From positions 25,923 through 89,922 of the IMG/VR virus record IMGVR_UViG_3300018080_000148: a stretch of 64,000 bases of DNA; one strand, 5' to 3'. Source of the DNA: a virus. Below are positions 22,279 to 48,291 of this stretch, one piece after another. Under the pieces are notes generated by a model, which was given only the letters and a program-made list of their open reading frames with translations, searched no databases and had not been told where the DNA came from. Within the stretch, counting starts at the first letter, position 1; each line of letters opens with the position of its first letter. Made by a program: the position numbers and the translations under genes.

Positions 22279-22313
22279 AACGCACTCCTTCACATGGGGC
22301 TGGGGAAAAACAG

Positions 22314-26079: not shown

Positions 26080-26197
26080 TTAACCCACGCTCTTGCCAGC
26101 AACCACAATCCCAGCGAACAGTGTCGCCTTCGTCGTAATTGATGATAATCCCCGTGCGGCAGTTGCCGCACGGGGATTCGGTGTTCATGAATTTCAT
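26015..26197 (-). CDS. Small zinc-binding protein (60 aa)
   Basis: CGNC near residue 10 and WDCGCW near 29 form a likely zinc site. The codons for ESPCGNCRTG lie in a perfect GC hairpin (AATCCCCGTGCGGCA with its complement, 26137-26167). The protein overlaps the AMP nucleosidase start and the upstream gene end. Confidence 0.5.
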   Translation of the reverse strand: MKFMNTESPCGNCRTGIIINYDEGDTVRWDCGCWQERGLNGYTHEFDVLGEGFCDSEDQK

Positions 26198-26505
26198 TTT
26201 GGTCGTCTCGGAGGCTTTTTACCTTGCTTGTGGTTCGCCAGCAATTTCAAAAAAGCTTTGGCAAAAGCTGGCGGCAGTTCAACTTTTTGGCTCAGAAGGC
26301 CCATTGTCCCCTTCATGAGGGTGCCGTTACAGCCAAAATTGCAAATGTCGATTCCGCCATCCTCGAAGAGGTAGAAGTCGTACCAATTTCCTTCTACTTC
26401 GATTTCACCGAGAAATGTGGATGGGTTGGTTGGGTCGTAGCCAAACCGCTCGATTTTCAATGCCCGCTGTTCTTCCGGTGTCATTTGATTCCAGGGCTTT
26501 TCCAT
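26194..26505 (-). CDS. Hypothetical protein (103 aa)
   Basis: A small protein with a beta-rich middle (GEIEVEGNWYDFYLFED) and two Cys (DICNFGCNG), ending in a Lys/Arg/Pro tail. It starts about 50 nt downstream of the RNase P RNA 3' end on the same strand. Function unknown. Confidence 0.5.
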   Translation of the reverse strand: MEKPWNQMTPEEQRALKIERFGYDPTNPSTFLGEIEVEGNWYDFYLFEDGGIDICNFGCNGTLMKGTMGLLSQKVELPPAFAKAFLKLLANHKQGKKPPRRPK

Positions 26506-26556: not shown

Positions 26557-26748
26557 GAGAGTCCCCGTAAGCCGGATTCTGTTCTATGCCGCCATTTATC
26601 TGTTGGCCACTACCCGGCGTCACAGGGTTGCTCACCCCCTCAGCCTGTTTGTGTTGCAACCTGGGTGGTGTGTGCGGGCGATGCCCTCCCACCGTGAGCA
26701 ATGTTGTCCGGACTTTCCTCACCGAAGTGCGGCGGCTCGGGACTACTC
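26557..26748 (-). ncRNA. rnpB: Miniature RNase P RNA
   Basis: On the minus strand this carries the hallmark sequences of bacterial type A RNase P RNA. GAGGAAAGTCCGGAC is the 5' half of P4 with CR I. AGATAAATG, then AGAACAGAATCCGGCTTAC, match the J15/2 region and the 3' half of P4 with CR V. AGTCCC pairs with GGGACT to form P1. TTGCTCAC pairs with GTGAGCAA in the P7 position, enclosing GGTGG/CCACC and the GCAACACAAACAGG region that corresponds to J11/12. At about 190 nt it is half the usual length: the catalytic core remains and most of the peripheral helices are gone. It would mature the 5' ends of tRNAs, of which this window has 19. Confidence 0.9.
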
Positions 26749-26782: not shown

Positions 26783-27937
26783 CTACTTCCCTTCCTCTTC
26801 CCCCTTACGACCGGAGGTTTGCTGTAAGTCGTGTGGCCGCAATTCTTTGCGGCATGCATGAACAGCAGCGGCAATCACCTGATGCATGTCGTAGTATTTG
26901 TAGGTTCCCAGCCGTCCACCAAAGATTACATCGGGCTCTTGCTTGGCAGCCTCCTGGTACTTTTTGCACAAGGCGTTGTTCTGTTCGTCGTTGATCGGGT
27001 AATACCGGGGTTCTCCCGGCTTCCATTCTTGCGGGTACTCGAATGTGAAGACGGTCTTCTCTTGTGTGCCGAACTCGAAGTGCTTGTGTTCAATGATCCG
27101 GGTGTGTTGCTTTTCTTCTTCGGTGTAGTTGACAACAGCGTTGCCCTGCATGTCTCCGGTAGACGTTACGTGTGTAAACCTTAGAGAACGATACTCCAAA
27201 GGACCGTGCATGTACATGAAGAACTCATCGATGGGGCCAGTGAACACCAACTTCTTGGCCAACCTCTGCCAATCTTCCCCTGGGGTGAATTTGCAATTCA
27301 GTTCAAGGTCAATGCCCTTTAGCATCTTTTCAACGATTTGGGTATAACCGCCGATAGGGATGCCCTGGTATCTATCCTTGTAGTAGTTGTCGTCATAAGT
27401 CAGTCGGATCGGCAATCGTTTTATGATGAAAGCTGGCAACTCCTTGGGATCTCGGCCCCACTGTTTCTTCGTGTACCCTCGAATGAATATTTCGTAGATC
27501 TCTTCGCCAACCTGAGACAGAGCCCATTCCTCTAAGTTGCTGGGGTTTTCACACGGCACACGGACAGACGCCAGTTTCTTTTCCGCTTCTTCTGGAGATC
27601 CCACGCCCCATAATTGATGGAGGGTCAATAGGTTTATGGGGAAGGAGTACATTCTTCTCTTGTATCTTACCTTTGGGCGGTTGACGAAGTGGTTGAACTC
27701 GGCGAACCGGTTTACGTAGTTCCAGATTTCGTAGCTGTTGGTATGAAAGATGTGAGGTCCGTGGCAATGTACGTTGATGCCGCCAACGTTTCTCGTATAG
27801 ATGTGCCCAGCCACATGCTTGCCTCTTTCCCAAACAAGGACTTTTTTGCCATTCATTGCCATTTCATGGGCGAAGGTGGCACCGTATAGTCCTGCGCCCA
27901 CTACAAGATAGTCGTATTTCATATTTAATAATTTCAC
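26783..27937 (-). CDS. glf: UDP-galactopyranose mutase (384 aa)
   Basis: This FAD enzyme converts UDP-galactopyranose to UDP-galactofuranose. The dinucleotide-binding motif is DYLVVGAGLYGATFA near residue 9, followed by WERGKHVAGHIYT, HCHGPHIFHTN near 59, and the GYTKKQWGRDPKELP region near 156, all typical of bacterial Glf. A C-terminal GRLGTYKYYDMHQVI block completes the FAD site. It starts with GTG at 27937 or ATG at 27922. It is divergent from the methyltransferase gene at 27956 and shares a TATATA box with it. Confidence 0.95.
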   Translation of the reverse strand: MKLLNMKYDYLVVGAGLYGATFAHEMAMNGKKVLVWERGKHVAGHIYTRNVGGINVHCHGPHIFHTNSYEIWNYVNRFAEFNHFVNRPKVRYKRRMYSFPINLLTLHQLWGVGSPEEAEKKLASVRVPCENPSNLEEWALSQVGEEIYEIFIRGYTKKQWGRDPKELPAFIIKRLPIRLTYDDNYYKDRYQGIPIGGYTQIVEKMLKGIDLELNCKFTPGEDWQRLAKKLVFTGPIDEFFMYMHGPLEYRSLRFTHVTSTGDMQGNAVVNYTEEEKQHTRIIEHKHFEFGTQEKTVFTFEYPQEWKPGEPRYYPINDEQNNALCKKYQEAAKQEPDVIFGGRLGTYKYYDMHQVIAAAVHACRKELRPHDLQQTSGRKGEEEGK

Positions 27938-40358: not shown

Positions 40359-40372
40359 TTCCACCTCCAAAG

Positions 40373-40457
40373 TACCCAGGGCGAGACTCGAACTCGCACC
40401 CCCGGAATGGGGACTAGGCCCTCAACCTAGCGTGTCTACCAATTCCACCACCTGGGC
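40373..40457 (-). tRNA. tRNA-Leu (GAG)
   Basis: Class II cloverleaf with acceptor GCCCAGG/CCTGGGT, anticodon loop TTGAGGG between CTAGG and CCTAG, a GC-rich variable arm and T arm GCGAG/CTCGC. Its first 44 nt overlap the 3' end of the SET-domain gene. CCA is not encoded. Confidence 0.95.
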
Positions 40458-40893
40458 GTATGAATTTCTTTTTTATTTTTGTCCTAATGGGCTTTTCTGG
40501 CGTTTGGCAATCCAACCTACTTGGGCTGCCGTAGTGGCCCAATATCTCTTCTCCTGATTTAATATCACGGTTAAAAATATATAGCACCCTGCCGTCATCT
40601 GTCTGGACTAAAGTCGCATTTTGTTGTCGCACGGTCGGTGCCTGATTGACGATGCCCCCAATTCCCATGGGAACCAAGCTGTGCTCTCTGCCATCGGCAA
40701 AAAACTTGTAGTTGTGAGCGTATTGTGTGCAGTTGTCTTCAAGAGACCCGTATTTCACCTTGGCTCCGATAACCTCGATGAAATCCCCTTTCTTCAGATC
40801 TACCAGGGCAAAGACGCCTCGGCCTGCATTCGGGATCGTGGAGGCTGCTATCCGGTATTTACGAAGGTTTTCTTCGGGCTCTTGGAAAATCAT
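40414..40893 (-). CDS. SET-domain protein ending inside tRNA-Leu (159 aa)
   Basis: This is a compact SET domain. NAGRGVFALVDLKKGDFIEV near residue 23 is the N-SET motif, GGIVNQAPTVRQQNATLV near 78 is the region that usually reads NHS, and FNRDIKSGEEILGHYG near 108 is the C-SET motif. SET proteins methylate lysines, so a phage version could target host or phage proteins. NQAP replaces the usual NHS, which may change activity. The last 15 residues are translated from tRNA-Leu sequence. Confidence 0.7.
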   Translation of the reverse strand: MIFQEPEENLRKYRIAASTIPNAGRGVFALVDLKKGDFIEVIGAKVKYGSLEDNCTQYAHNYKFFADGREHSLVPMGIGGIVNQAPTVRQQNATLVQTDDGRVLYIFNRDIKSGEEILGHYGSPSRLDCQTPEKPIRTKIKKKFIRPGGGIGRHARLRA

Positions 40894-40905
40894 TCCTTAA
40901 TAGAG

Positions 40906-41029
40906 TGGCCGGGACTGGAATCGAACCAGTGACCTTTGGGGGAACAGCTTGAGAGGTAACTATGAGCCTTTCGGCGTCGTGCAATCAAGCGTCTTGTCCC
41001 AATGCTCTACCAACGTGAGCTACCCGACC
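40906..41029 (-). tRNA. tRNA gene with 50-nt insertion in the anticodon loop (possibly Asn)
   Basis: All other parts of the cloverleaf are standard: acceptor GGTCGGG/CCCGGCC with A73, D arm GCTC/GAGC with ACGTTGGTA loop, anticodon stem TTGGG/CCCAA, variable AGGTC and T arm ACTGG-TTCGATT-CCAGT. The anticodon loop is 57 nt instead of 7. Inside it GCTTGA pairs with TCAAGC and GCC-GAAA-GGC makes a small hairpin. The only register with U33 places GUU as the anticodon, giving Asn, but then 37 and 38 are both C, which is unusual. It must be spliced or is non-functional. Confidence 0.7.
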
Positions 41030-41223
41030 TTATTTTTGCCCTCCCAACTGACTCCGTGCGTCACGCTGAGGTAACGACACAATTCGTCGGCTGCGTCTTG
41101 GGGGAGAGAGGCAATTCTGTCACCAAGCTCCCGAATGTAATCTTCCTCAAAAGCAGTTCCAGTGGTTGTTGTAGGCGGTTTGATTCCATCGCCTTGTGTT
41201 TGCGTACAACCGTATCCGTTCAT
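41020..41223 (-). CDS. Small hypothetical protein (67 aa)
   Basis: MNGYGCTQTQGDGIKPPTTT begins the protein and a helical second half (IRELGDRIASLPQDAADEL) follows. AGGAG lies 8 nt before the ATG. The stop codon lies 10 nt inside the 5' end of the following tRNA gene. Confidence 0.45.
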   Translation of the reverse strand: MNGYGCTQTQGDGIKPPTTTTGTAFEEDYIRELGDRIASLPQDAADELCRYLSVTHGVSWEGKNKVG

Positions 41224-41257
41224 AGACACCGCTCCTATTGATGGGGTTCGTTTTTAG

Positions 41258-41337
41258 TGAGCAGGGCAGGAATTGAACCTGCAACTACTGGTTGCGACAT
41301 CGGCTTTGTAACTGGTGGACTTTCGCCCACACCGCTC
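41258..41337 (-). tRNA. tRNA-like gene, anticodon not assigned
   Basis: T arm GCAGG-TTCAATT-CCTGC is clear and the ends pair (GAGCGG with CTGCTC, extended by flanking AGT/ACT). GTGG/CCAC could be the D stem, but its loop GCGAAAGT lacks the conserved GG. The anticodon arm cannot be folded with a 7-nt loop containing U33; GTTAC and GCAAC pair with one mismatch around 12 nt. It may be another tRNA with an insertion or a decayed copy. Confidence 0.5.
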
Positions 41338-41375
41338 ACTCTCCAGCGTGCTTACCAGAGCACCTCCCGCCCAAT

Positions 41376-41564
41376 TTAGCCGCCAAATTGGACTCGTGCG
41401 TAATCTGTCAAAAGGTGATGGATTCTTCGATGTGCCACTTTTTTGGCGTTAAAGTCTGCCAACTTGCCACCGAGGTAGGCATCAAGCAGTTCTTGGTCAG
41501 TCAATAACTCGGCCATGTCTGCGTTGATACTTCTGATTTTCGCTTTCGATACGTTGATAGACAT
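41376..41564 (-). CDS. Small hypothetical protein (62 aa)
   Basis: [20 protein letters not shown] begins a helical protein that ends in [14 protein letters not shown]. The stop is 38 nt upstream of the tRNA-like gene, and tRNA-Leu(CAG) ends 31 nt before its start. Function unknown. Confidence 0.45.
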
Positions 41565-41595
41565 CCTTTTTTCCTTATGCGGGCGGGGGATGTAG

Positions 41596-41679
41596 TGCCC
41601 CTGGCAGGACTCGAACCTGCACGGCCTTGCGGCCACAGCATCCTGAATGCTGCGTGTCTACCATTTCCACCACAGGGGC
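41596..41679 (-). tRNA. tRNA-Leu (CAG)
   Basis: Acceptor GCCCCTG/CAGGGGC, anticodon loop TTCAGGA between CAGCA and TGCTG, variable arm with GGCCGCAAGGCC and T arm GCAGG/CCTGC. It starts 1 nt after the stop codon of the membrane-protein gene at 41681. Confidence 0.95.
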
Positions 41680-41680
41680 A

Positions 41681-41920
41681 TTAGCTTGGGGGTGGGAACC
41701 CCGGATTGTCGTTCTTCTTTTTCTGTTTATCATCCTTGAATGTTGGTGTCCACGCCAACATGATCCAACATGTGATCCCAAACACTGCCAGTGTTACCGA
41801 AATCGACCACGGCAACATATTCACCTTCTCGGTCATCTTGAAGGCAACGGCGTCGGCTACGCCGAAGCCTCCTACGCAGATGGCCACTAAGATGGCAACA
41901 CTCTTTACAATTTTTATCAT
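41681..41920 (-). CDS. Small membrane protein (79 aa)
   Basis: Two membrane helices (VAILVAICVGGFGVADAVAF and ISVTLAVFGITCWIMLAW) are followed by a Lys/Asp-rich cytoplasmic tail and a Pro-rich end. GGAGAGGTCC precedes the start. It sits between two tRNA-Leu genes, 1 nt from one and 14 nt from the other. Confidence 0.55.
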   Translation of the reverse strand: MIKIVKSVAILVAICVGGFGVADAVAFKMTEKVNMLPWSISVTLAVFGITCWIMLAWTPTFKDDKQKKKNDNPGFPPPS

Positions 41921-41934
41921 GGACCTCTCCTAAG

Positions 41935-42016
41935 TAGCCCCGGAGGGAGTCGAACCCTCACGCCTTGCGGCACTGGATCTTAAATCCAGCGTGTCTACCG
42001 ATTTCACCACGGGGCC
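41935..42016 (-). tRNA. tRNA-Leu (UAA), copy 2
   Basis: Acceptor GGCCCCG/CGGGGCT, anticodon loop TTTAAGA between CTGGA and TCCAG, variable arm TGCCGCAAGGCG and T arm GAGGG/CCCTC. Unlike copy 1 at 22314, position 37 is G. A dispersed GTGTGG-element lies 10 nt upstream of its 5' end. Confidence 0.95.
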
Positions 42017-42025
42017 TTGCAACCG

Positions 42026-42047
42026 TTTTCCCCACTAGCCACACTTA
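42026..42047 (-). promoter_or_regulatory. Dispersed GTGTGG-element before tRNA-Leu (UAA)
   Basis: This 22-mer is identical to 43535-43556, which also precedes a tRNA-Leu. On the minus strand it reads TAAGTGTGGCTAGTGGGG followed by AAAA. It may be a promoter or processing element for the tRNA downstream. Confidence 0.5.
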
Positions 42048-42218
42048 TGGTGGAACGGCAAACATGCTGTAACATTCGATGCTCCGCTCCCTAAGGTCTC
42101 TTTGTTCTTCTTTGGAAAGCTTCTCGCAATCCTTGCAGGGTCCGTCACCGTTGAAGTGCTCTTCGGCGTACACCTCTAAACAGATTGGGCACTGAAATTG
42201 TATGGGGCCGAGGCTCAT
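42045..42218 (-). CDS. Small zinc-ribbon protein (57 aa)
   Basis: CPIC near residue 9 and CKDC near 27 form a zinc ribbon, followed by an acidic/basic helix (LSKEEQRDLRERSIE). The start at 42218 is 5 nt from the stop of the M23 gene. Function unknown; nucleic-acid binding is plausible. Confidence 0.5.
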   Translation of the reverse strand: MSLGPIQFQCPICLEVYAEEHFNGDGPCKDCEKLSKEEQRDLRERSIECYSMFAVPP

Positions 42219-42222
42219 TGTT

Positions 42223-42762
42223 TTACCTGGGGTTTTGTGCGCTTTCAATCAAGTGTGTTGTTGGATCAAGTAGGCCGAATGGTTGGCTCTCACCTTTCTC
42301 CCACACGCCGTTGCTCAGGAAGCCGTGGCGATGCATGGCAAGGTGGAGCATGGAGGTTGGTCTGCCCTTGTCCTTCTTGAGCACTCGTTTGACGTGCCCG
42401 ATCAGGTCGCCTTGTCGCACCTCTTTTTCCTGAATGTAGAACTTTTGTTTTCCCTCGACGGTGGATTCCCCGATAACTCGAAAGCCGTGGTGCTTGATTT
42501 CCCCATAAACTACGATCCCGCTATTGCCCGCAACTGATACGGCCCATGTGTTCTCCCACCAATCACACCCCGCCACTTTGCCCGTGAATGGCCGAATGTG
42601 GCAAAGCACTCCATCTTCTACGGCGAAGACTTCAGTTCCTTCAGGACAATAAAGATCCACGCCCTTGTGAACGTCATGCCGCCGCTCGATGCCAAAAGCG
42701 CCGACATGCGGCTTGATGGGTATCTCCACTTCCGAAGTAATGTCGATATACTGAAAAGACAT
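42223..42762 (-). CDS. M23-type metallopeptidase (179 aa)
   Basis: HDVHKGVDLYCPEGTEVFAV near residue 30 holds the H-x-x-x-D zinc motif, and SMLHLAMHRHG near 140 holds the H-x-H motif of LytM/lysostaphin-type peptidoglycan endopeptidases. There is no signal peptide, so export for lysis would need a holin, or it may be a virion wall-degrading enzyme. Its first 89 nt overlap the ParB-like gene. Confidence 0.75.
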   Translation of the reverse strand: MSFQYIDITSEVEIPIKPHVGAFGIERRHDVHKGVDLYCPEGTEVFAVEDGVLCHIRPFTGKVAGCDWWENTWAVSVAGNSGIVVYGEIKHHGFRVIGESTVEGKQKFYIQEKEVRQGDLIGHVKRVLKKDKGRPTSMLHLAMHRHGFLSNGVWEKGESQPFGLLDPTTHLIESAQNPR

Positions 42763-43078
42763 CGAGTTGGAAGTGGGCCCTAACTTCTTCATCTTCAATG
42801 GAAACAACCAAGTCACTGACCTCTCCTCTCACGCTGCGATAGAGGAAATCCTTCTCCACCAAAATATACTCATATTTACGCAAAAAGCGCCGTCCAGCCA
42901 GCCAAGCGGCAACGGTGCGGTGGTGTCCATTTTCGATTGCCATCGTACCGTCCGCCAGTCGAGCTATTTGGATTGGTTCTACGTATCCACCTTGCCTTAT
43001 CTCTTCCACTAGCTTCGGCAACTGGTGTGCTCGATTCAACCGGTGTTGTGTTGTTTTAAGTTTTGCAATGTCTATCAC
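42674..43078 (-). CDS. ParB/sulfiredoxin-fold protein (134 aa)
   Basis: LPKLVEEIRQGGYVEPIQIA near residue 20 and DGTMAIENGHHRTVAAWLAG near 43 match the ParB N-terminal fold, with GHHR as the nucleotide-binding box. It lacks the DNA-binding domain of true ParB. Free-standing versions in phages act as nucleases, CTPases or modifiers. It overlaps the M23 gene by 89 nt and the receiver-like gene by 4 nt. Confidence 0.65.
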   Translation of the reverse strand: MIDIAKLKTTQHRLNRAHQLPKLVEEIRQGGYVEPIQIARLADGTMAIENGHHRTVAAWLAGRRFLRKYEYILVEKDFLYRSVRGEVSDLVVSIEDEEVRAHFQLDVFSVYRHYFGSGDTHQAACRRFWHRAAA

Positions 43079-43443
43079 AGGCCACCCGCTCCATCTTGTT
43101 TGAGTCGCCTTTTTAGATTAGGGAATGGAACCTGTTCTACCTTGTAGTTGTGGCGAAGGGCATCTTCCATCCTTTGTGCGCCTCGCCTATTTGTCGAGTG
43201 GATGATGACCTTCTTTATTTGCGGCCTTTCTTGAGCAAGCCATTTTGCGGCTACTGCTCCATTTTTGCCCTCGTAACCCGGTGCCTCTTCCAAGTCGTGA
43301 TCGAGTAGGGCTAAATCCCATTCTCCTAGCACGACTCGACGCTTCAGGTCTCTAAATCTCCTACACACAATGGCGTAGGGGAAGTGTTTCAGGAGAAATT
43401 CCAACCGCACCTTCCAACGGTCTTCCAAAATTATTACGTTCAT
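43075..43443 (-). CDS. Cyclic-phosphate-processing receiver-like (cREC) protein (122 aa)
   Basis: VIILEDRWKVRLEFLLKHF near residue 3, WDLALLDHDLEE near 43 and KVIIHSTNRRGAQRMEDAL near 77 match the cREC family, a receiver-like domain in which LDHDL and HSxN are the hallmark motifs. The family has been linked to RNA repair and conflict systems, where it may open cyclic phosphates. Next to a tRNA array this suggests a link with cleaved-tRNA repair. It starts 3 nt after tRNA-Leu(CAA). Confidence 0.6.
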   Translation of the reverse strand: MNVIILEDRWKVRLEFLLKHFPYAIVCRRFRDLKRRVVLGEWDLALLDHDLEEAPGYEGKNGAVAAKWLAQERPQIKKVIIHSTNRRGAQRMEDALRHNYKVEQVPFPNLKRRLKQDGAGGL

Positions 43444-43445
43444 AG

Positions 43446-43530
<85 letters not shown>

Positions 43531-43534
43531 TTGT

Positions 43535-43556
43535 TTTTCCCCACTAGCCACACTTA
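43535..43556 (-). promoter_or_regulatory. Dispersed GTGTGG-element before tRNA-Leu (CAA)
   Basis: Identical 22-mer to 42026-42047, in the same position before a tRNA-Leu gene. It fills nearly the whole gap between the stop of the gene at 43557 and the tRNA. Confidence 0.5.
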
Positions 43557-44036
43557 TTACGCCGTTTCCCCACGCATGAACCTGCGAGCCATCTGCCAAC
43601 CCCTTTCTGTTGCCTCAAACCTCGCCACTGGCGAACTTTCTCTGCCGAAGTGTGGGTCGATTTGCTTGGCGTCATCGGCTGGGGCGTTGCCCTCGTAAAC
43701 CATGATCTTGTGGCTGTTCGGACAGTTTGGGTAATGAACCCACAGAGCCGTCCAGTAACACTCTTCTGCCCGCCGCAGGATCGTGAACACCTCTTCCTTC
43801 TCGTCGATCATCTTGATCGCTTGAAGATGTTCTGCCTGGATCACGAAATCCACGTCAGGGTCAAAGTCTGTCAAGTCGTTCATGCCGACCGCAAACAACA
43901 CCTTGTCGTCGTCCACATCAGCCAACACGATCACATCGCTTTTTGGTCCGCCCAAGAATTGGAATCTGCCAATTCTCTGAGGGTGGTGTGGGTGACCCGA
44001 TACAACCTTGTACTGTGTGTCATAGACCAGATTCAT
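43557..44036 (-). CDS. Hypothetical protein (159 aa)
   Basis: A soluble alpha/beta protein starting MNLVYDTQYKVVSGHPHHP, with two Cys near the middle and an RxxMRGE end. GGAG lies 6 nt before the ATG at 44036, and the start overlaps the upstream stop. Function unknown. Confidence 0.5.
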   Translation of the reverse strand: MNLVYDTQYKVVSGHPHHPQRIGRFQFLGGPKSDVIVLADVDDDKVLFAVGMNDLTDFDPDVDFVIQAEHLQAIKMIDEKEEVFTILRRAEECYWTALWVHYPNCPNSHKIMVYEGNAPADDAKQIDPHFGRESSPVARFEATERGWQMARRFMRGETA

Positions 44037-44311
44037 TCTAGACTCCATTCGTTGGGATGCGCCACTTCCAGTTCTTGCTCAGGAAGCCTTTCCTGATACA
44101 CTTCTTGGATTGACTGCCGCACCTTGAGCTTCTCTTCCATCGTCAACTCTCGATGAACCGTAAACTTCATCGTGACGATCTCACTTCTGAGACTCATCTT
44201 TTCGGGAAAGCCGAAACCGTGCATGGTCTCGTTGACCGAATCAACTATTTCCCCAACCGAGGAAAAGACCTTGCCCAGATTGCACGTGATGGGAATGAGA
44301 TACGTTGGCAT
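44033..44311 (-). CDS. Hypothetical protein (92 aa)
   Basis: A small alpha/beta protein: MPTYLIPITCNLGKVFSSVG at the start and a beta strand (EIVTMKFTVHREL) before a charged helix. AAGGAG precedes the start. The start is 15 nt after tRNA-Leu(UAG). Function unknown. Confidence 0.5.
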   Translation of the reverse strand: MPTYLIPITCNLGKVFSSVGEIVDSVNETMHGFGFPEKMSLRSEIVTMKFTVHRELTMEEKLKVRQSIQEVYQERLPEQELEVAHPNEWSLE

Positions 44312-44326
44312 GGTTTGCTCCTTCAG

Positions 44327-44408
44327 TAGCCGGGGCGGGACTCGAACCCGCACGCCTTGCGGCACAGGTTCCTAAAACCTGCGTGTCTGCCAATTTCACC
44401 ACCCGGCC
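44327..44408 (-). tRNA. tRNA-Leu (UAG)
   Basis: Acceptor GGCCGGG/CCCGGCT, anticodon loop TTTAGGA between CAGGT and ACCTG, variable arm TGCCGCAAGGCG and T arm GCGGG/CCCGC. The SRP RNA domain ends 2 nt before its 5' end, so RNase P cleavage here would also form the SRP RNA 3' end. Confidence 0.95.
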
Positions 44409-44410
44409 TC

Positions 44411-44456
44411 ACCGCCTTAGGGCTGCTTCGTTTCCGACCTGACCCGGTTCGGCGGC
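44411..44456 (-). ncRNA. SRP RNA domain IV (4.5S-like), minimal
   Basis: On the minus strand GGGTCAGGTCGGAAACGAAG followed by CAGCCC reproduces the conserved tip of bacterial SRP RNA. In E. coli 4.5S RNA the tip reads GGTCAGGTCCGGAAGGAAGC. The tetraloop here is GAAA closed by a G-C pair where E. coli has GGAA closed by C-G, which is a compensated change. The symmetric TCAG/AGCAG internal loop bound by Ffh is intact. GCCGCC pairs with GGCGGT to close a 46-nt hairpin. No longer arm is visible; a 13-codon frame ends at its 5' edge. It could bind host Ffh and redirect membrane targeting. Confidence 0.8.
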
Positions 44457-44493
44457 TAGACTTCGTTGACGACCTTGCGGAAGCCAACGACAG

Positions 44494-44658
44494 TCATGTT
44501 TCGTTCGTAAACACTTTGTGGATCTGAAAGCGAAGTATCGATAGCTCACGTGGGTGCTCACACTCCTCTTCCACCCATGCCTGAGCCTCTTCGTAGGTGT
44601 TTCTTTCTGCCCTGATTGTCGTCGAACCCCATTCTGTCACAATAAACTTCACTTTCAC
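44494..44658 (-). CDS. Small hypothetical protein (54 aa)
   Basis: A GTG start with GGAGA 5 nt upstream, encoding MKVKFIVTEWGSTTIRAERN, a Glu-rich helix and FQIHKVFTNET. An ATGA overlap leads into a 13-codon frame (44456-44497) that ends at the edge of the SRP RNA. Function unknown. Confidence 0.4.
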   Translation of the reverse strand: MKVKFIVTEWGSTTIRAERNTYEEAQAWVEEECEHPRELSILRFQIHKVFTNET

Positions 44659-44668
44659 GATTGTCTCC

Positions 44669-45004
44669 TTACATCGTCATTTCGTCAACATGCCCCGCAC
44701 TCACAGGGTCGTCGCCCTGGATAGCTGCGATTTTCTCGGCTGCCTCGTTGAGAACTTTGCTGATCTCCAACGCTTTTTCAAAATTCTGCTCCGTCCGCTT
44801 CGCCATCTCGGACAAATACACGGTGGAGAGATTCTGCATGAGTCCTATCATGCGGAAGTTGCACGCCATCATGGCCTTCAGTAGGTAGTCTTCTTGCGGA
44901 AACATGTTTTTATTGTACCCCATGACTAGATAGTTGTGAACCAAGTCTTTTGGTACTATCATCGAGAGGCCCGCCCCCATGGAAACGGGGTGGGCCTTGT
45001 TCAT
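44669..45004 (-). CDS. Hypothetical protein (111 aa)
   Basis: A Met-rich helical protein, MNKAHPVSMGAGLSMIVPKD at the start, with a long second helix (RTEQNFEKALEISKVLNEAAEKI interrupted here for length). The start lies 3 nt after the 3' end of tRNA-Phe with insertion. Function unknown. Confidence 0.5.
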   Translation of the reverse strand: MNKAHPVSMGAGLSMIVPKDLVHNYLVMGYNKNMFPQEDYLLKAMMACNFRMIGLMQNLSTVYLSEMAKRTEQNFEKALEISKVLNEAAEKIAAIQGDDPVSAGHVDEMTM

Positions 45005-45007
45005 GAG

Positions 45008-45102
45008 TGGGCCGGGCTGGAGTCGAACCAGCGACACCTGGATTTTCATTCATGGGGTTGCCTGACCCCTGTCCAGTGCTCTACCAACTGAGCTACCGAC
45101 CC
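45008..45102 (-). tRNA. tRNA-Phe (GAA) with 22-nt hairpin insertion in the anticodon loop
   Basis: The cloverleaf is otherwise perfect: acceptor GGGTCGG/CCGGCCC with A73, D arm GCTC/GAGC with AGTTGGTA loop, anticodon stem CTGGA/TCCAG, variable GTGTC and T arm GCTGG-TTCGACT-CCAGC. The anticodon loop has 29 nt: C, then a segment containing GGGGT-CAGGCA-ACCCC, then TGAAAA. Removing 22 nt after the first loop base leaves CTGAAAA, the standard Phe loop with U33, GAA and A37. The insertion is far too small for a group I intron. Confidence 0.85.
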
Positions 45103-45107
45103 ATATT

Positions 45108-45320
45108 TTAGCAGCAATCAATATAAACCAATGGGTCCATATCGGGGTCCATTTGGTGACCGTTCTTGAGATTGTGGGCGACTTTATATCCCACTGTGCG
45201 AGCAAACCGTTCAAGATCTTCGTGAGTCACCCCATCGAATACTCTTGCATCTTGGTCCCACTTTTTTTTCAGATCATCGTGAACAGACTCGCCTGCCAAT
45301 GCTGTGCTATATGCGCTCAT
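45108..45320 (-). CDS. Small hypothetical protein (70 aa)
   Basis: MSAYSTALAGESVHDDLKKK begins the protein, a helix with AHNLKNGHQMDPDMDP follows and it ends DCC. Its stop is 5 nt upstream of the tRNA-Phe 5' end. Function unknown. Confidence 0.45.
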   Translation of the reverse strand: MSAYSTALAGESVHDDLKKKWDQDARVFDGVTHEDLERFARTVGYKVAHNLKNGHQMDPDMDPLVYIDCC

Positions 45321-45341
45321 TGCGTTTTCCTTTCTGAAGAG

Positions 45342-45426
45342 CGGAAGCGGAGGGAGTCGAACCCCCAAGGCGGTTAAGCTCGTCCCGGTTCGAGCGGGGT
45401 GCAGTCGCCAATCTGCTTGCGCTTCC
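45342..45426 (-). tRNA. tRNA-Ser (CGA)
   Basis: Acceptor GGAAGCG/CGCTTCC with G73, anticodon loop CTCGAAC, long variable arm and T arm GGGGG/CCCTC. The stop codon of the upstream gene lies 1 nt before its 5' end. Confidence 0.9.
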
Positions 45427-45427
45427 G

Positions 45428-45721
45428 TTACTGATCGTATCCAACATTTGATGCTTCATCGATTTCTACATCGATGCCTCGGTCAGTGACCCAAAGACTA
45501 TGTATCAGCCGCCCGATGACGGTGCTCTCGAAGTCGTCCAGTTTGGGGCGGATCTCTCCGATTTGGTCCATTAACGGGTCGGCCAAGTCATCTCGGTCAT
45601 TGGCCAAGTGTTCGTTTGCCTCAACGATCAGTTTGATGCAGCGTTCATAATTGCTCGGTCTTCCACGTTTCGTGGTTGACTTTGCCGCTGTCTTTTTCTT
45701 CGTCGTTTTCTTCTTCGCCAT
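45428..45721 (-). CDS. Hypothetical protein with Lys-rich N-terminus (97 aa)
   Basis: MAKKKTTKKKTAAKSTTKRG begins the protein with a histone-tail-like composition, then RPSNYERCIKLIVEANEHL and an acidic second half. DNA or RNA binding by the tail is plausible. Gap 45728-45867 upstream holds a possible promoter and a short hairpin. Confidence 0.45.
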   Translation of the reverse strand: MAKKKTTKKKTAAKSTTKRGRPSNYERCIKLIVEANEHLANDRDDLADPLMDQIGEIRPKLDDFESTVIGRLIHSLWVTDRGIDVEIDEASNVGYDQ

Positions 45722-45849
45722 TATCATAATCCTCTAGCAAAAAGTGTAGTATAGTACGCACTTGCGCACATTTTTCGCCAAAAGGATTACGACTTTGACG
45801 TTTTAAGTCAAGGCCAACTTCTATACCAAATTGTCAAAGATCAAATCAA

Positions 45850-45864
45850 GCTGGCATTGCCAGC
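45850..45864 (-). terminator. Possible hairpin after the abnormal tRNA-Tyr
   Basis: GCTGGC pairs with GCCAGC across 3 nt, followed on the minus strand by TTGATTTGAT. It is a weak terminator candidate just after three consecutive tRNA genes. Confidence 0.35.
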
Positions 45865-45867
45865 AAG

Positions 45868-46004
45868 TGGGAGAGGTAGGAGTCGAACCTACAAGCCCTT
45901 TCGGGCGTCACGTTTACAGCGTGCTTACCTTGCCAATGGTTGTATGCTTCTAATGTAGGGGACGGTTGCCCGTCCAAGTCTTGAAAGCGTTTAGTTACTC
46001 TCCC
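45868..46004 (-). tRNA. tRNA-Tyr (GTA) with about 55-nt insertion before the D arm
   Basis: Acceptor GGGAGAG/CTCTCCC with A73, anticodon loop CTGTAAA between GCACG and CGTGA, variable arm CGCCCGAAAGGGCTT and T arm GTAGG/CCTAC are normal. D arm ACC-ATTGGCAA-GGT is also recognisable, but 57 nt instead of 2 lie between the acceptor strand and the D stem. That segment contains GGACGG-GCAA-CCGTCC, a 6-bp hairpin with a GNRA loop. A second, normal tRNA-Tyr lies at 46853. Confidence 0.7.
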
Positions 46005-46008
46005 GTTG

Positions 46009-46125
46009 TGGACCGAGCAGGAGTTGAACCTGCATCCTCGCCTTCCAGGGCGCTATGTTACTCGCTGAATCACCGGCGTATTATGTACACTAGCCCACCG
46101 GCTATCAGTTACACACCATCGGTCC
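46009..46125 (-). tRNA. tRNA-like gene with insertion, anticodon not assigned
   Basis: Acceptor GGACCGA/TCGGTCC is a perfect 7-bp match and T arm GCAGG-TTCAACT-CCTGC is normal, but the gene is 117 nt long. TAGCC-GGTG-GGCTA forms a hairpin in the 5' half. Near the T arm CGCC and GGCG could close a 6-nt loop CTGGAA. No standard 7-nt anticodon loop fits. It lies 4 nt from the abnormal tRNA-Tyr and 2 nt from tRNA-Cys. Confidence 0.55.
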
Positions 46126-46127
46126 AG

Positions 46128-46206
46128 AGTCGCCGGGAGGATTCGAACCTCTTACCACGAGTTTTGCAGACTCGCTCCGAGCCATTAGGATTTAGGTTCC
46201 GACGAC
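46128..46206 (-). tRNA. tRNA-Cys (GCA), with 7 extra nt before the D arm
   Basis: Acceptor GTCGTCG/CGGCGAC with T73, anticodon loop CTGCAAA between CGAGT and ACTCG, T arm GAGGT/ACCTC-like with TTCGAAT loop. Nine nt (GAACCTAAA) instead of two separate the acceptor strand from the D stem TCC/GGA. The first 15 nt overlap the 3' end of an HNH endonuclease gene. Confidence 0.8.
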
Positions 46207-46776
46207 ATTCAGCTTGTTGCCTTTGGGTAGGTAGTAAAATTTCCAATTCTTGAATGTTTCTGCCATACATTTTTTCCTGAGTTGTTCTACTGGGAACTTC
46301 TTAGGGAAGGTGTGTATGGTGCGATGACAATTGGGGCACACTACTACCAAATTATCATGTGAATCTGTTCCTCCTTTTTTCTTGGGCACAATATGGTGGA
46401 TGTCGCATGCTGCTTCATTCCACCCACACAGTACGCACTTAATCTTTGCTCTCTTGAGGATCTTTTGCTGTGTTCTTTTTGAAAACTCAAGTATGCTTTT
46501 GGCGTCTTCTTTGCAATATGCTACTTTCCTTTTACATTGTTCGCAGTGTTTTTTCCTGCTTTGACGGATCTTTTTACTCTCGAATGCTTTCCCGCATTTT
46601 TCACAAGTGTATTTGTGTAGCTCGTGGGGGTGCGATGCTGCCCATGCGGCAACCGAACTAGCAATTTTTTCTCTCGTTTGTTTGTTGTGACTTCTGCTCT
46701 TGGCGCACGATTCACTGCAAAATCGCCCGGAGCCAAATGTCCCATCATGTTTTTTGTTGCATTTTTCACACTTCAT
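46192..46776 (-). CDS. HNH endonuclease in the tRNA array (194 aa)
   Basis: CEKCNKKHDG near residue 3 with FCSESCAKS, a second finger CEKCGKAFES with CEQCKRK, and the nuclease core CVLCGWNEAACDIHHIVPKK near 115 followed by NLVVVCPNCHRTIH near 142 make a zinc-finger-rich HNH enzyme of the homing type. It ends 15 nt inside tRNA-Cys and is directly followed by three tRNA genes with abnormal length. It may target tRNA-gene sequence and so relate to the insertions. Confidence 0.85.
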   Translation of the reverse strand: MKCEKCNKKHDGTFGSGRFCSESCAKSRSHNKQTREKIASSVAAWAASHPHELHKYTCEKCGKAFESKKIRQSRKKHCEQCKRKVAYCKEDAKSILEFSKRTQQKILKRAKIKCVLCGWNEAACDIHHIVPKKKGGTDSHDNLVVVCPNCHRTIHTFPKKFPVEQLRKKCMAETFKNWKFYYLPKGNKLNVVGT

Positions 46777-46852
46777 TGTTCAGCCTCCGATTTATCTATC
46801 GGAAACTGAACTTGTTTTGAGTGTAAAAAAATTCACATTTTATCAGGTTCAG

Positions 46853-46938
46853 TGGGCCGAGAGGGACTTGAACCCCCAAGCACCTTACGGTGACGTGGTT
46901 TACAGCCACGGACGCTACCAATTACGCTCTATCGACCC
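46853..46938 (-). tRNA. tRNA-Tyr (GTA), normal
   Basis: Acceptor GGGTCGA/TCGGCCC, anticodon loop CTGTAAA between CGTGG and CCACG, variable arm CACCGTAAGGTG and T arm GGGGG/CCCTC. The last base of the upstream gene's stop codon is its first base. Confidence 0.95.
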
Positions 46939-47210
46939 TACTCTTTCTTGGGCGGCTCCTTCGGCAAGGAGTCACCTGTGTTGTCTCTATGTCTCCTTAT
47001 CATTTGTTCTGGTGTATCGGGGATTTCAGTCGGCTCTCCTGCTGATAAAACCACCCAACCATTTGTCCAGTGTCCGTAATCGTCTTTCAGCTTGACGACG
47101 CCCCCAACCTTTGCAAACTTCTCTGGGATGTATGACACCATCGTGGAGATGCCGGTTCGGGTTTTTCTTTCCATATAACACTGGCAATACTTTACGGTTT
47201 TCTTGCTCAT
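46938..47210 (-). CDS. Hypothetical protein (90 aa)
   Basis: The protein starts MSKKTVKYCQCYMERKTRTG, contains a beta-rich middle (GGVVKLKDDYGHWTNGWVV) and a Pro/Lys tail, and ends exactly at the tRNA-Tyr 5' end. Function unknown. Confidence 0.5.
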   Translation of the reverse strand: MSKKTVKYCQCYMERKTRTGISTMVSYIPEKFAKVGGVVKLKDDYGHWTNGWVVLSAGEPTEIPDTPEQMIRRHRDNTGDSLPKEPPKKE

Positions 47211-47235
47211 TTTCGCATCGTAATGCTCCTTTCAG

Positions 47236-47318
47236 CGGAGGCGACAGGACTCGAACCTGCAAGGCTTTCGCTCGACGGTTTTCAAGACCGCTGCCGTCGC
47301 CAATCGGCTTGCGCCTCC
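47236..47318 (-). tRNA. tRNA-Ser (TGA)
   Basis: Acceptor GGAGGCG/CGCCTCC with G73, anticodon loop CTTGAAA between GCGGT and ACCGT, variable arm GAGCGAAAGCCTT and T arm GCAGG/CCTGT. Confidence 0.95.
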
Positions 47319-47375
47319 TCGCTAGGGCCGAGGGGCGGTGGATCGTCCATGCCGCCCGAGGGCCCGTATAGTTTG

Positions 47376-47723
47376 TTATGGATGCACCTCAAAGTGAATC
47401 CCAGAGCCATGGCTTCCATGGTGGCTCCCATTTCGGCAGTACGGACAAGTGCGATAATCACGCCCATGACGACAGTTGTTGAAATCATGTCGGCAGTGAG
47501 GGCAGCTAACCGCACTGTAACCGTGCCTGCACCTATATGCGTTTCGGCAGTGAGGACATGTTCGATAATCATATCCGTGACGACATCTGGCTACGTGTGG
47601 CTGATGATGTCCACGTTCAATAATTACCGGCCTTTGCTGCCTTGGCTGGCAGTCGTGATGACAGGAACAACCTGTCACGAAAGCCAGCAACAGTAGAACA
47701 AATAACGAAGTGACAACTTTCAT
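47376..47723 (-). CDS. Lipoprotein with three Cys/His repeats (115 aa)
   Basis: A lipobox (LAFVTGCSC, Cys near residue 19) marks a lipoprotein. The mature part contains three repeats of 17-18 residues, CRHGYDYRTCPHCRN, CRHGYSAVSCPHCRH and CRHGRDYRTCPYCRN, each with C-x-H and CPxC. Each repeat could bind a metal. His-rich ends flank the array. Such a protein would sit on the outer face of the membrane. A surface-exclusion or metal-binding role is possible; no family is recognised. Confidence 0.65.
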   Translation of the reverse strand: MKVVTSLFVLLLLAFVTGCSCHHDCQPRQQRPVIIERGHHQPHVARCRHGYDYRTCPHCRNAYRCRHGYSAVSCPHCRHDFNNCRHGRDYRTCPYCRNGSHHGSHGSGIHFEVHP

Positions 47724-47773
47724 CTTCCCTCCTATTGAAAGAGTCCGTCACTTGTATCTACTGTTATTACTAG

Positions 47774-47845
47774 TGGAAAGGGTAGGAATCGAACCTACGA
47801 CGCCCTGGTGTTCAGTCAGGCGCTCTACCACTGAGCTACCTTTCC
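47774..47845 (-). tRNA. tRNA-Phe (GAA), with A31-C39 mismatch
   Basis: Acceptor GGAAAGG/CCTTTCC with A73, D arm GCTC-AGTGGTA-GAGC, anticodon loop CTGAACA between CCTGA and CCAGG, T arm GTAGG-TTCGATT-CCTAC. The last stem pair is A-C and position 37 is C, both unusual. The first 10 nt overlap the stop of the upstream gene. Confidence 0.8.
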
Positions 47846-48009
47846 ATTGCTCTTTGGTTTAGTCTCCTGTTTTCCTTTCTCTTCTCTTTCTTGGCCACAC
47901 GACTTTCGCTGACCTTTTTCTGGTGAGCAAACCACCCCGCCCAGTCCATACGGCCAGTCGGCATGCCGCCACCGGAACCGGGCATCTTCTTGATACGTTT
48001 GTATCGCAT
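47836..48009 (-). CDS. Small basic protein (57 aa)
   Basis: MRYKRIKKMPGSGGGMPTGR begins the protein and AKKEKRKENRRLNQRAMER ends it, so it is strongly basic and may bind nucleic acid. It starts 14 nt after tRNA-Ser and ends 10 nt inside tRNA-Phe. Confidence 0.45.
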   Translation of the reverse strand: MRYKRIKKMPGSGGGMPTGRMDWAGWFAHQKKVSESRVAKKEKRKENRRLNQRAMER

Positions 48010-48022
48010 GGCTTCTCTCCAG

Positions 48023-48111
48023 CGGAGGGCATGGGAATCGAACCCACCGCTCCCCGTAGGGAGCACCTGCTTTCCAAGCAGGCCCGGCTAACCAATATCC
48101 GGCTACCCTCC
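48023..48111 (-). tRNA. tRNA-Ser (GGA), copy 2
   Basis: Acceptor GGAGGGT/GCCCTCC with G73, anticodon loop TTGGAAA between CCTGC and GCAGG, long variable arm CTCCCTACGGGGAG and T arm GTGGG/CCCAT. Confidence 0.95.
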
Positions 48112-48159
48112 AAGTTTAGTTGCAACTTTCAATTGAAGTTGCGACTTTCAATTCCATGC

Positions 48160-48191
48160 AGCCAAATGTAACAAAAGTGTTATATTTGGCT
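48160..48191. other. 14-bp hairpin between two tRNA-Ser genes
   Basis: AGCCAAATGTAACA pairs with TGTTATATTTGGCT with one mismatch and a 4-nt loop. A second hairpin GCAACTT/AAGTTGC lies at 48122-48142. It may guide processing between tRNA-Ser(GCU) and tRNA-Ser(GGA). Confidence 0.4.
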
Positions 48192-48203
48192 ACACTTAAC
48201 AAG

Positions 48204-48291
48204 CGGAAGCGACAGGAATCGAACCTGCACCGGTAGTTGGCCGGAACGCTTTAGCAGAGCGCCGCTACGAACCAATATTAGCCTCGCTTCC
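48204..48291 (-). tRNA. tRNA-Ser (GCT)
   Basis: Acceptor GGAAGCG/CGCTTCC with G73, anticodon loop CTGCTAA between GCGCT and AGCGT, variable arm TCCGGCCAACTACCGGT and T arm GCAGG/CCTGT. The first 27 nt overlap the 3' end of the upstream gene. Confidence 0.95.

Follow-up and report, generated by a model that had tools for sequence, protein, structure and literature searches.

A Catalytic-Domain-Only RNase P RNA in a Phage Record and Its Relatives in Large Phages

Genomic Context and Identification of the RNA

The DNA analyzed here (64,000 nucleotides, referred to as the window) belongs to an IMG/VR virus record of 89,922 bases, and carries on its minus strand, at positions 26557–26748, a gene for a 192-nt RNase P RNA in which the catalytic half has been retained. 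It is flanked on the same strand by an open reading frame of 103 amino acids (26194–26505) and by a UDP-galactopyranose mutase gene (26783–27937). The phage-type genes of the record include a DnaB-like helicase (PHROG, E 3e-62) and an SbcC-like nuclease subunit (2e-81), together with a weak match to a major head protein (3e-8); genes for DNA polymerase A, RecA, a single-strand DNA binding protein and thymidylate synthase are also present. ARAGORN predicts 13 tRNA genes in the window (22313–48291), to which Rfam adds a few irregular ones, a count that does not bear out the 19 tRNA genes announced in a preceding sequence-only reading of this DNA. Eleven of the 13 form an array on the minus strand (40372–48291; ARAGORN, Rfam), the other two being situated at 22313 and 30557, and the tRNA gene nearest to the RNase P RNA lies 4 kb away.

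Within the RNase P clan of Rfam, the best match for the 192-nt RNA is the bacterial class A model (RF00010), to which it aligns from end to end (model positions 1–367) with 72.4 bits and an E-value of 3.1e-22. Since the curated cut-off of this model is 100 bits, a default Rfam scan is silent at 26557–26748, and the RNA goes unseen by routine annotation. The sequence-only reading had proposed an RNase P RNA of about 190 nt on the minus strand from its CR I, CR IV, CR V and P1 motifs; all of them are found where it had placed them, and the full-length alignment agrees with both identity and size. The covariance-model search that it had recommended thus succeeds as an alignment, with a score that stays under the family threshold. 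A joint pattern of CR I, CR IV and CR V matches once in the window and in 0 of 100 shuffled versions. No second RF00010 match, including a separate S-domain RNA, was found elsewhere in the 89,922-base record.

Architecture of the 192-nt RNA

All the elements described below lie on the minus strand. The ends are closed by P1, whose 5′ strand GAG-U-AGUCCC (26739–26748) pairs with GGGACU-CUC (26557–26565), the core AGTCCC/GGGACT corresponding to 26744–26739/26565–26560; this helix covaries in relatives. P2 (GCCGCC, 26731–26736, with GGCGGC, 26588–26593) is 100% paired in 16 relatives, with double changes at six of its six pairs, and P3 is a minimal hairpin (CAC-UUCG-GUG, 26720–26729). CR I (GAGGAAAGTCCGGAC / GAGGAAAGUCCGGAC, 26706–26720) provides the 5′ strand of P4 together with its bulged U, the equivalent of E. 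coli U69, and CR V (ACAGAATCCGGCTTA / ACAGAAUCCGGCUUA, 26568–26582) provides the 3′ strand. The resulting helix (AAGUCCGGA/UCCGGCUU, bulged U included) is 100% paired in the relatives, shows double changes at four of eight pairs and is recovered by RNAalifold without prompting; P4 therefore pairs, a point on which the sequence-only reading had staked its proposal, and covaries. P5 is formed by CAAC (26703–26706) and GUUG (26657–26660). In P6, UUGCUCAC (26694–26701) makes a pseudoknot with its 8-bp complement in the L17 region, GUGAGCAA (26628–26635); among 26 RNAs the stem score is 14.9 for own pairs vs. 10.7 across sequences (0 of 2000 permutations). The whole S domain (P8–P14) is replaced by a single short hairpin (GGGC-AUC-GCCC) that closes P7 (GGUGG/CCACC; 26664–26693 in all), with 20 nt between the two P7 strands.

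The segment GCAACACAAACAGG (26644–26657) is the counterpart of the conserved GCAAGRCCAAAUAGG (J5/15) in the RF00010 alignment, and contains the 5′ strand of P15 (CAC, 26651–26653), whose 3′ strand is GUG (26608–26610). GGGUAG (26610–26615), aligned to CGGGUag of the RF00010 model, holds the L15 GGU, equivalent to E. coli G292–U294, which pair with the RCC(A) end of the tRNA. P16 (GGC/GCC) and P17 (AGGG/CCCU) are arranged around the 3′ strand of P6 (26616–26645), and P18 is absent, 6 nt leading from the 3′ strand of P15 to CR IV (AGATAAATG / AGAUAAAUG, J18/2, 26593–26601). P1, P3, P15 and the three conserved regions were read from the sequence, P5, P16 and P17 from the sequence and relatives, P7 from the sequence and comparison, and the 3′ strand of P6 from comparison across RNAs. 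The minimum-free-energy fold is not that of an RNase P RNA, P4 and P6 being pseudoknots and the 8-bp P6 winning, and was not counted against the identification.

Compared with the bacterial type A RNA (RF00010; E. coli M1 RNA), the phage RNA shares CR I, CR IV, CR V, P1–P7, P15–P17, the bulged U of P4, the P6 pseudoknot (J5/7–L17) and the L15 GGU, but lacks the S domain (P8–P14, with the T-loop binding site) and P18, has a short P7 cap, scores under 100 bits with RF00010 and measures 192 nt instead of the 340–420 nt of bacterial RNase P RNAs (PMC4919922). The claim of the sequence-only reading that the catalytic core had been kept and most peripheral helices lost holds in this respect.

Relatives in Other Phages and Covariation

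An alignment of 16 reduced phage RNAs that excludes the window RNA (A1) was used to build a covariance model (R1), which matches the window RNA with 140.9 bits (E 3.3e-36). When A1 is read with the RNase P structure, 98.0% of its cells are paired, and compensatory double changes occur at 28 of 34 pairs; this was reached by 0 of 500 shuffles, and sliding the partners leaves 29–44% paired (about 40% for a shift of one base). With no structure supplied, RNAalifold recovered P1, P3, P4, P5, P15, P16 and P17 from the relatives. Among 26 RNAs, own-partner pairing exceeds pairing with the partners of other phages for every helix, the P6 pseudoknot among them; none of 2000 permutations attained this for seven of the helices, and 7 of 2000 did so for P15. 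Even P4 is exchanged among phages (CCGG/CCGG, CGCG/CGCG, CGGG/CCCG and CCCG/CGGG); the counts for the bulged U and ACAGAA in the relatives are biased by the search patterns.

A fixed-spacing three-motif pattern had no match in viral contigs (the window's own record being perhaps not among them), and shorter patterns were therefore used. Pattern scans of IMG/VR yielded many contigs with the same architecture, the counts being lower bounds. R1 matches at least 139 places in 185 loci (E < 0.01), and at least about 100 of these, counting the 16 sequences used for training, exceed 60 bits. The family thus extends to at least about 100 viral loci, among them those of DLP6, a phage in culture, and of three phage genomes measuring 595, 635 and 735 kb; BLAST searches from relatives led to the huge-phage records LR756511 (595 kb), LR745206 (635 kb) and LR756501/LR756503 (735 kb). 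When 14 phage records were searched in full, each gave exactly one R1 match; they include DLP6 (a 168-kb isolate) and the 595-, 635- and 735-kb records. The search for homologues in other large phages, also recommended by the sequence-only reading, accordingly reveals a broad phage-associated family and not a single oddity. RF00010 matched only 3 of 12 large phage records, none of them above the cut-off, and gave no match at all in the other nine, which explains why phage RNase P RNA has been overlooked.

In Stenotrophomonas phage DLP6 (KU682439.2), the RNA is located at 105770–106022 and is unannotated in the record (R1, 115.9 bits). It belongs to the same family as the window RNA, from which it differs by a CGCG-type P4, a larger P3 and one additional stem ahead of CR IV, and it is placed inside a 30-tRNA array, 5′ of a tRNA-Arg gene; RNase P goes unmentioned in the publication on DLP6.

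Outside viruses, R1 reached at best 42.2 bits in 144 bacterial genomes of one phylum. The exception among the 145 genomes of this phylum is a 3-kb contig with 13 tRNAs and an HNH gene, which looks like mis-binned phage DNA, and the same contig is the only match of a DNA pattern for the commonest phage P4 type among 84,980 bacterial and archaeal species genomes. On this comparative evidence, the window RNA is a homologue of RNase P RNA and a member of a phage family; its fold covaries, its active-site elements are intact, and it has lost both the S domain and P18.

The hairpin found in the place of the S domain (A1 columns 73–115; e.g., L133, L186, L032) is flanked by conserved sequence, either GGGAG...CGUUAnUACC or GGAG...UUGCACYACC, which may represent a new docking motif. 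A different reduction was observed in a 190-kb viral contig (L031, 10592–10802), whose 207-nt RNase P RNA (RF00010, 118.5 bits) retains a CR II-like segment and seems to have lost P15–P17. Full-size RNase P RNAs on IMG/VR contigs (e.g., G002, G039, G018) were excluded from the family, and some may be host sequence. A match in Microcystis phage MaAM05 (MW495066), where a region around 115 kb holds the start of a full-length-type RNase P RNA, was discarded because the neighboring glyS, mtgA and fabI look bacterial.

Protein Subunit and tRNA Genes

RnpA (PF00825) was not found in 31 records, including DLP6 and the 89.9-kb record of the window, which is possibly incomplete. It is present in two of 12 huge-phage records, and overall in two of 43: the 635-kb phage LR745206 (L226, 4409–4756) and a 476-kb IMG/VR contig (L225, 4377–4676). 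Both proteins carry the RNR motif (KRAVDRNRIKR) and score above the cut-off of NCBIfam TIGR00188 (rnpA). In these two phages both subunits of RNase P are consequently phage-encoded, whereas the RNA of the window would depend on a host protein. This fits the guess of the sequence-only reading that a host or phage protein might be needed. In both phages a ClpP-like head maturation protease gene is found near rnpA (the protease match having been tested in one of them).

The array at 40372–48291 presumably supplies the substrates of the phage RNA. Among the reduced RNAs, 13 of 26 have a tRNA gene at a distance of 500 bp or less, a figure that comes with no independent control. Pattern matches lacking CR IV/V had been considered as a chance control for this nearness (60 of 125 within 500 bp), and were rejected because R1 showed most of them to be true members with a divergent CR IV. 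The 13 ARAGORN tRNAs of the window all end in R73-C-T, not CCA, so that the GGU contact would be weaker before CCA addition; R-C-U could form A-U, C-G and U-G pairs with the L15 GGU. CCA is encoded in the tRNAs of DLP6 and others. A CCA-adding enzyme (PF01743) was not found in the window's record.

Comparison With Other Reduced RNase P RNAs

Natural loss of the S domain has a precedent in Archaea. According to two papers (PMC4919922, PMC5839562), the type T (type P) RNA that Lai et al. (2010) described in Pyrobaculum has a lost or degenerate S domain, no P18, and a P6. These three traits are common to the phage RNA; type T is, however, archaeal, while the phage RNA matches bacterial class A best. 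Another parallel is the E. coli RNA from which Mao et al. (2018; PMC5839562) deleted P18, the S domain and the greater part of P3, and whose remaining catalytic domain retains cleavage at the correct site. Once the S domain is gone, this RNA works about 100-fold more slowly than its full-size counterpart, whether C5 is present or not, and the protein-free reaction slows 8–28 fold when the P6-mimic is broken (PMC5839562). The construct Eco CP RPRdelP18P3Mini (PMC5839562) has the same deletions as the phage RNA (S domain, P18, and P3 to a minimum), and its parent construct is P6-dependent and active with C5; it is, however, a laboratory product with a 4-bp P6-mimic, vs. the 8-bp P6 of the phage. 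By analogy, the phage RNA would come close to a natural version of this construct with a longer P6. Judged by its sequence, it is neither a full type A nor an archaeal type T RNA, and is predicted to work like a type A catalytic domain.

Proposed Function and Alternative Explanations

It is highly probable, in our view, that the window encodes a functional RNase P RNA that descends from bacterial type A, has kept only the catalytic domain, and matures phage tRNAs with the RnpA of the host. We infer its transcription, catalysis, RnpA binding, pre-tRNA substrates and benefit to the phage. The RNA would be transcribed from the phage and fold via P4, P6 and the P15–P17 region; it would bind the acceptor stem and the 3′ end of the pre-tRNA, the latter through the L15 GGU, and cleave the 5′ leader with Mg2+ bound at P4. 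The protein subunit would be host RnpA, or phage RnpA in the two related huge phages, and the main task would be the maturation of the phage's own tRNAs during infection. The precedent of the E. coli catalytic domain (PMC5839562) suggests that, in this manner, the phage RNA would assemble with RnpA and process phage pre-tRNAs. Independence of the phage from host tRNA maturation, a gain foreseen by the sequence-only reading, may follow, although a phage lacking its own RnpA would still need the host protein.

Three other explanations deserve attention. The RNA might be no enzyme at all, but a decoy that titrates host RnpA and so stops host RNase P and host translation. RnpA in bacteria sits on the catalytic-domain core, precisely the part that the phages have kept, the S domain would be dispensable if protein binding were all that mattered, and 41 of the 43 records searched are devoid of phage RnpA. 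We nonetheless consider this improbable. The phages retain the GGU that contacts the substrate, and also P4, which binds metal and carries the bulged U, in its case by compensatory changes (the search patterns bias how often the U and ACAGAA are counted); two phages possess an RnpA of their own, which would be pointless for a decoy; and 13 of 26 members are found no further than 500 bp from tRNA genes. This last figure, along with the DLP6 copy inside its array of 30 tRNAs and the cleavage of standard model substrates at +1 by engineered catalytic domains (PMC5839562), also makes it unlikely that the targets have changed, i.e., that losing the S domain freed the enzyme from T-loop recognition to cut mainly phage mRNAs, irregular tRNA-like RNAs or host RNAs. 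Such a shift would accord with the family-wide loss of the S domain around a conserved core, with the tRNA-like genes with long inserts in the window array (45008–45102, 40906–41029), and with those reduced members (e.g., L012, L013, L026, L030, L143, L212) for which no tRNA was detected at the locus.

Decay of a host rnpB copy, or contamination of the contig by host DNA, is suggested by an RNA of about half the normal size and under the Rfam cut-off, but appears very improbable indeed in view of the strong compensatory change across many phages, the single intact copy per phage record, and a phage-type P4 pattern found in dozens of viral contigs vs. one of 84,980 bacterial and archaeal species. 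The record itself, moreover, carries phage genes (the DnaB-like helicase, the SbcC-like nuclease subunit and the weak major head protein match).

Beyond the reading of the window RNA as a functional enzyme, a broader proposal seems to us evenly balanced between true and false: many large phages would own a catalytic-domain-only RNase P of bacterial type, sometimes with RnpA, and take over tRNA maturation with it, the measuring device of the S domain being gone and perhaps exchanged for a conserved P7 cap. RNase P RNA is the textbook universal ribozyme of cells, in which it trims tRNAs, and to our knowledge no phage-encoded RNase P RNA has been reported; none was found in the literature on phage, viral and jumbo-phage RNase P, on phage RnpA, or in reviews, in a search limited to published, largely freely available papers. 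A survey of huge phages lists tRNAs, synthetases and ribosomal proteins, with no mention of RNase P (PMC7162821). Viruses appear to bring their own tRNA-processing enzyme. The translation toolkit known from huge phages, with its tRNAs, tRNA synthetases and ribosomal proteins, would then also cover tRNA maturation. A widespread natural form devoid of the S domain illustrates a possible design for the smallest working RNase P of bacterial type, and its many sequences display covariation even in P4, the active-site helix. The proposal is directly testable, as a cultured phage (DLP6) and huge phages carrying RnpA have been identified.

Other Structured RNAs in the tRNA Array

Besides regular tRNAs, the array includes tRNA-like genes whose anticodon or variable region holds a long structured insert (45008–45102, 40906–41029 and 41258–41366, minus strand), the rest being mostly class II tRNAs (Leu, Ser, Tyr). 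Directly 5′ of a tRNA-Leu gene, a match to the small SRP (4.5S) RNA was also observed (44391–44474, minus strand; RF00169, 41.9 bits with a cut-off of 40), carrying the GGUCAGGUC...AGCAGCC domain. An SRP RNA in a phage would likewise be unusual; RF00169 also matches two further phage records with an RNase P RNA, G039 (497 kb, 57.7 bits) and G007 (36.4 bits).
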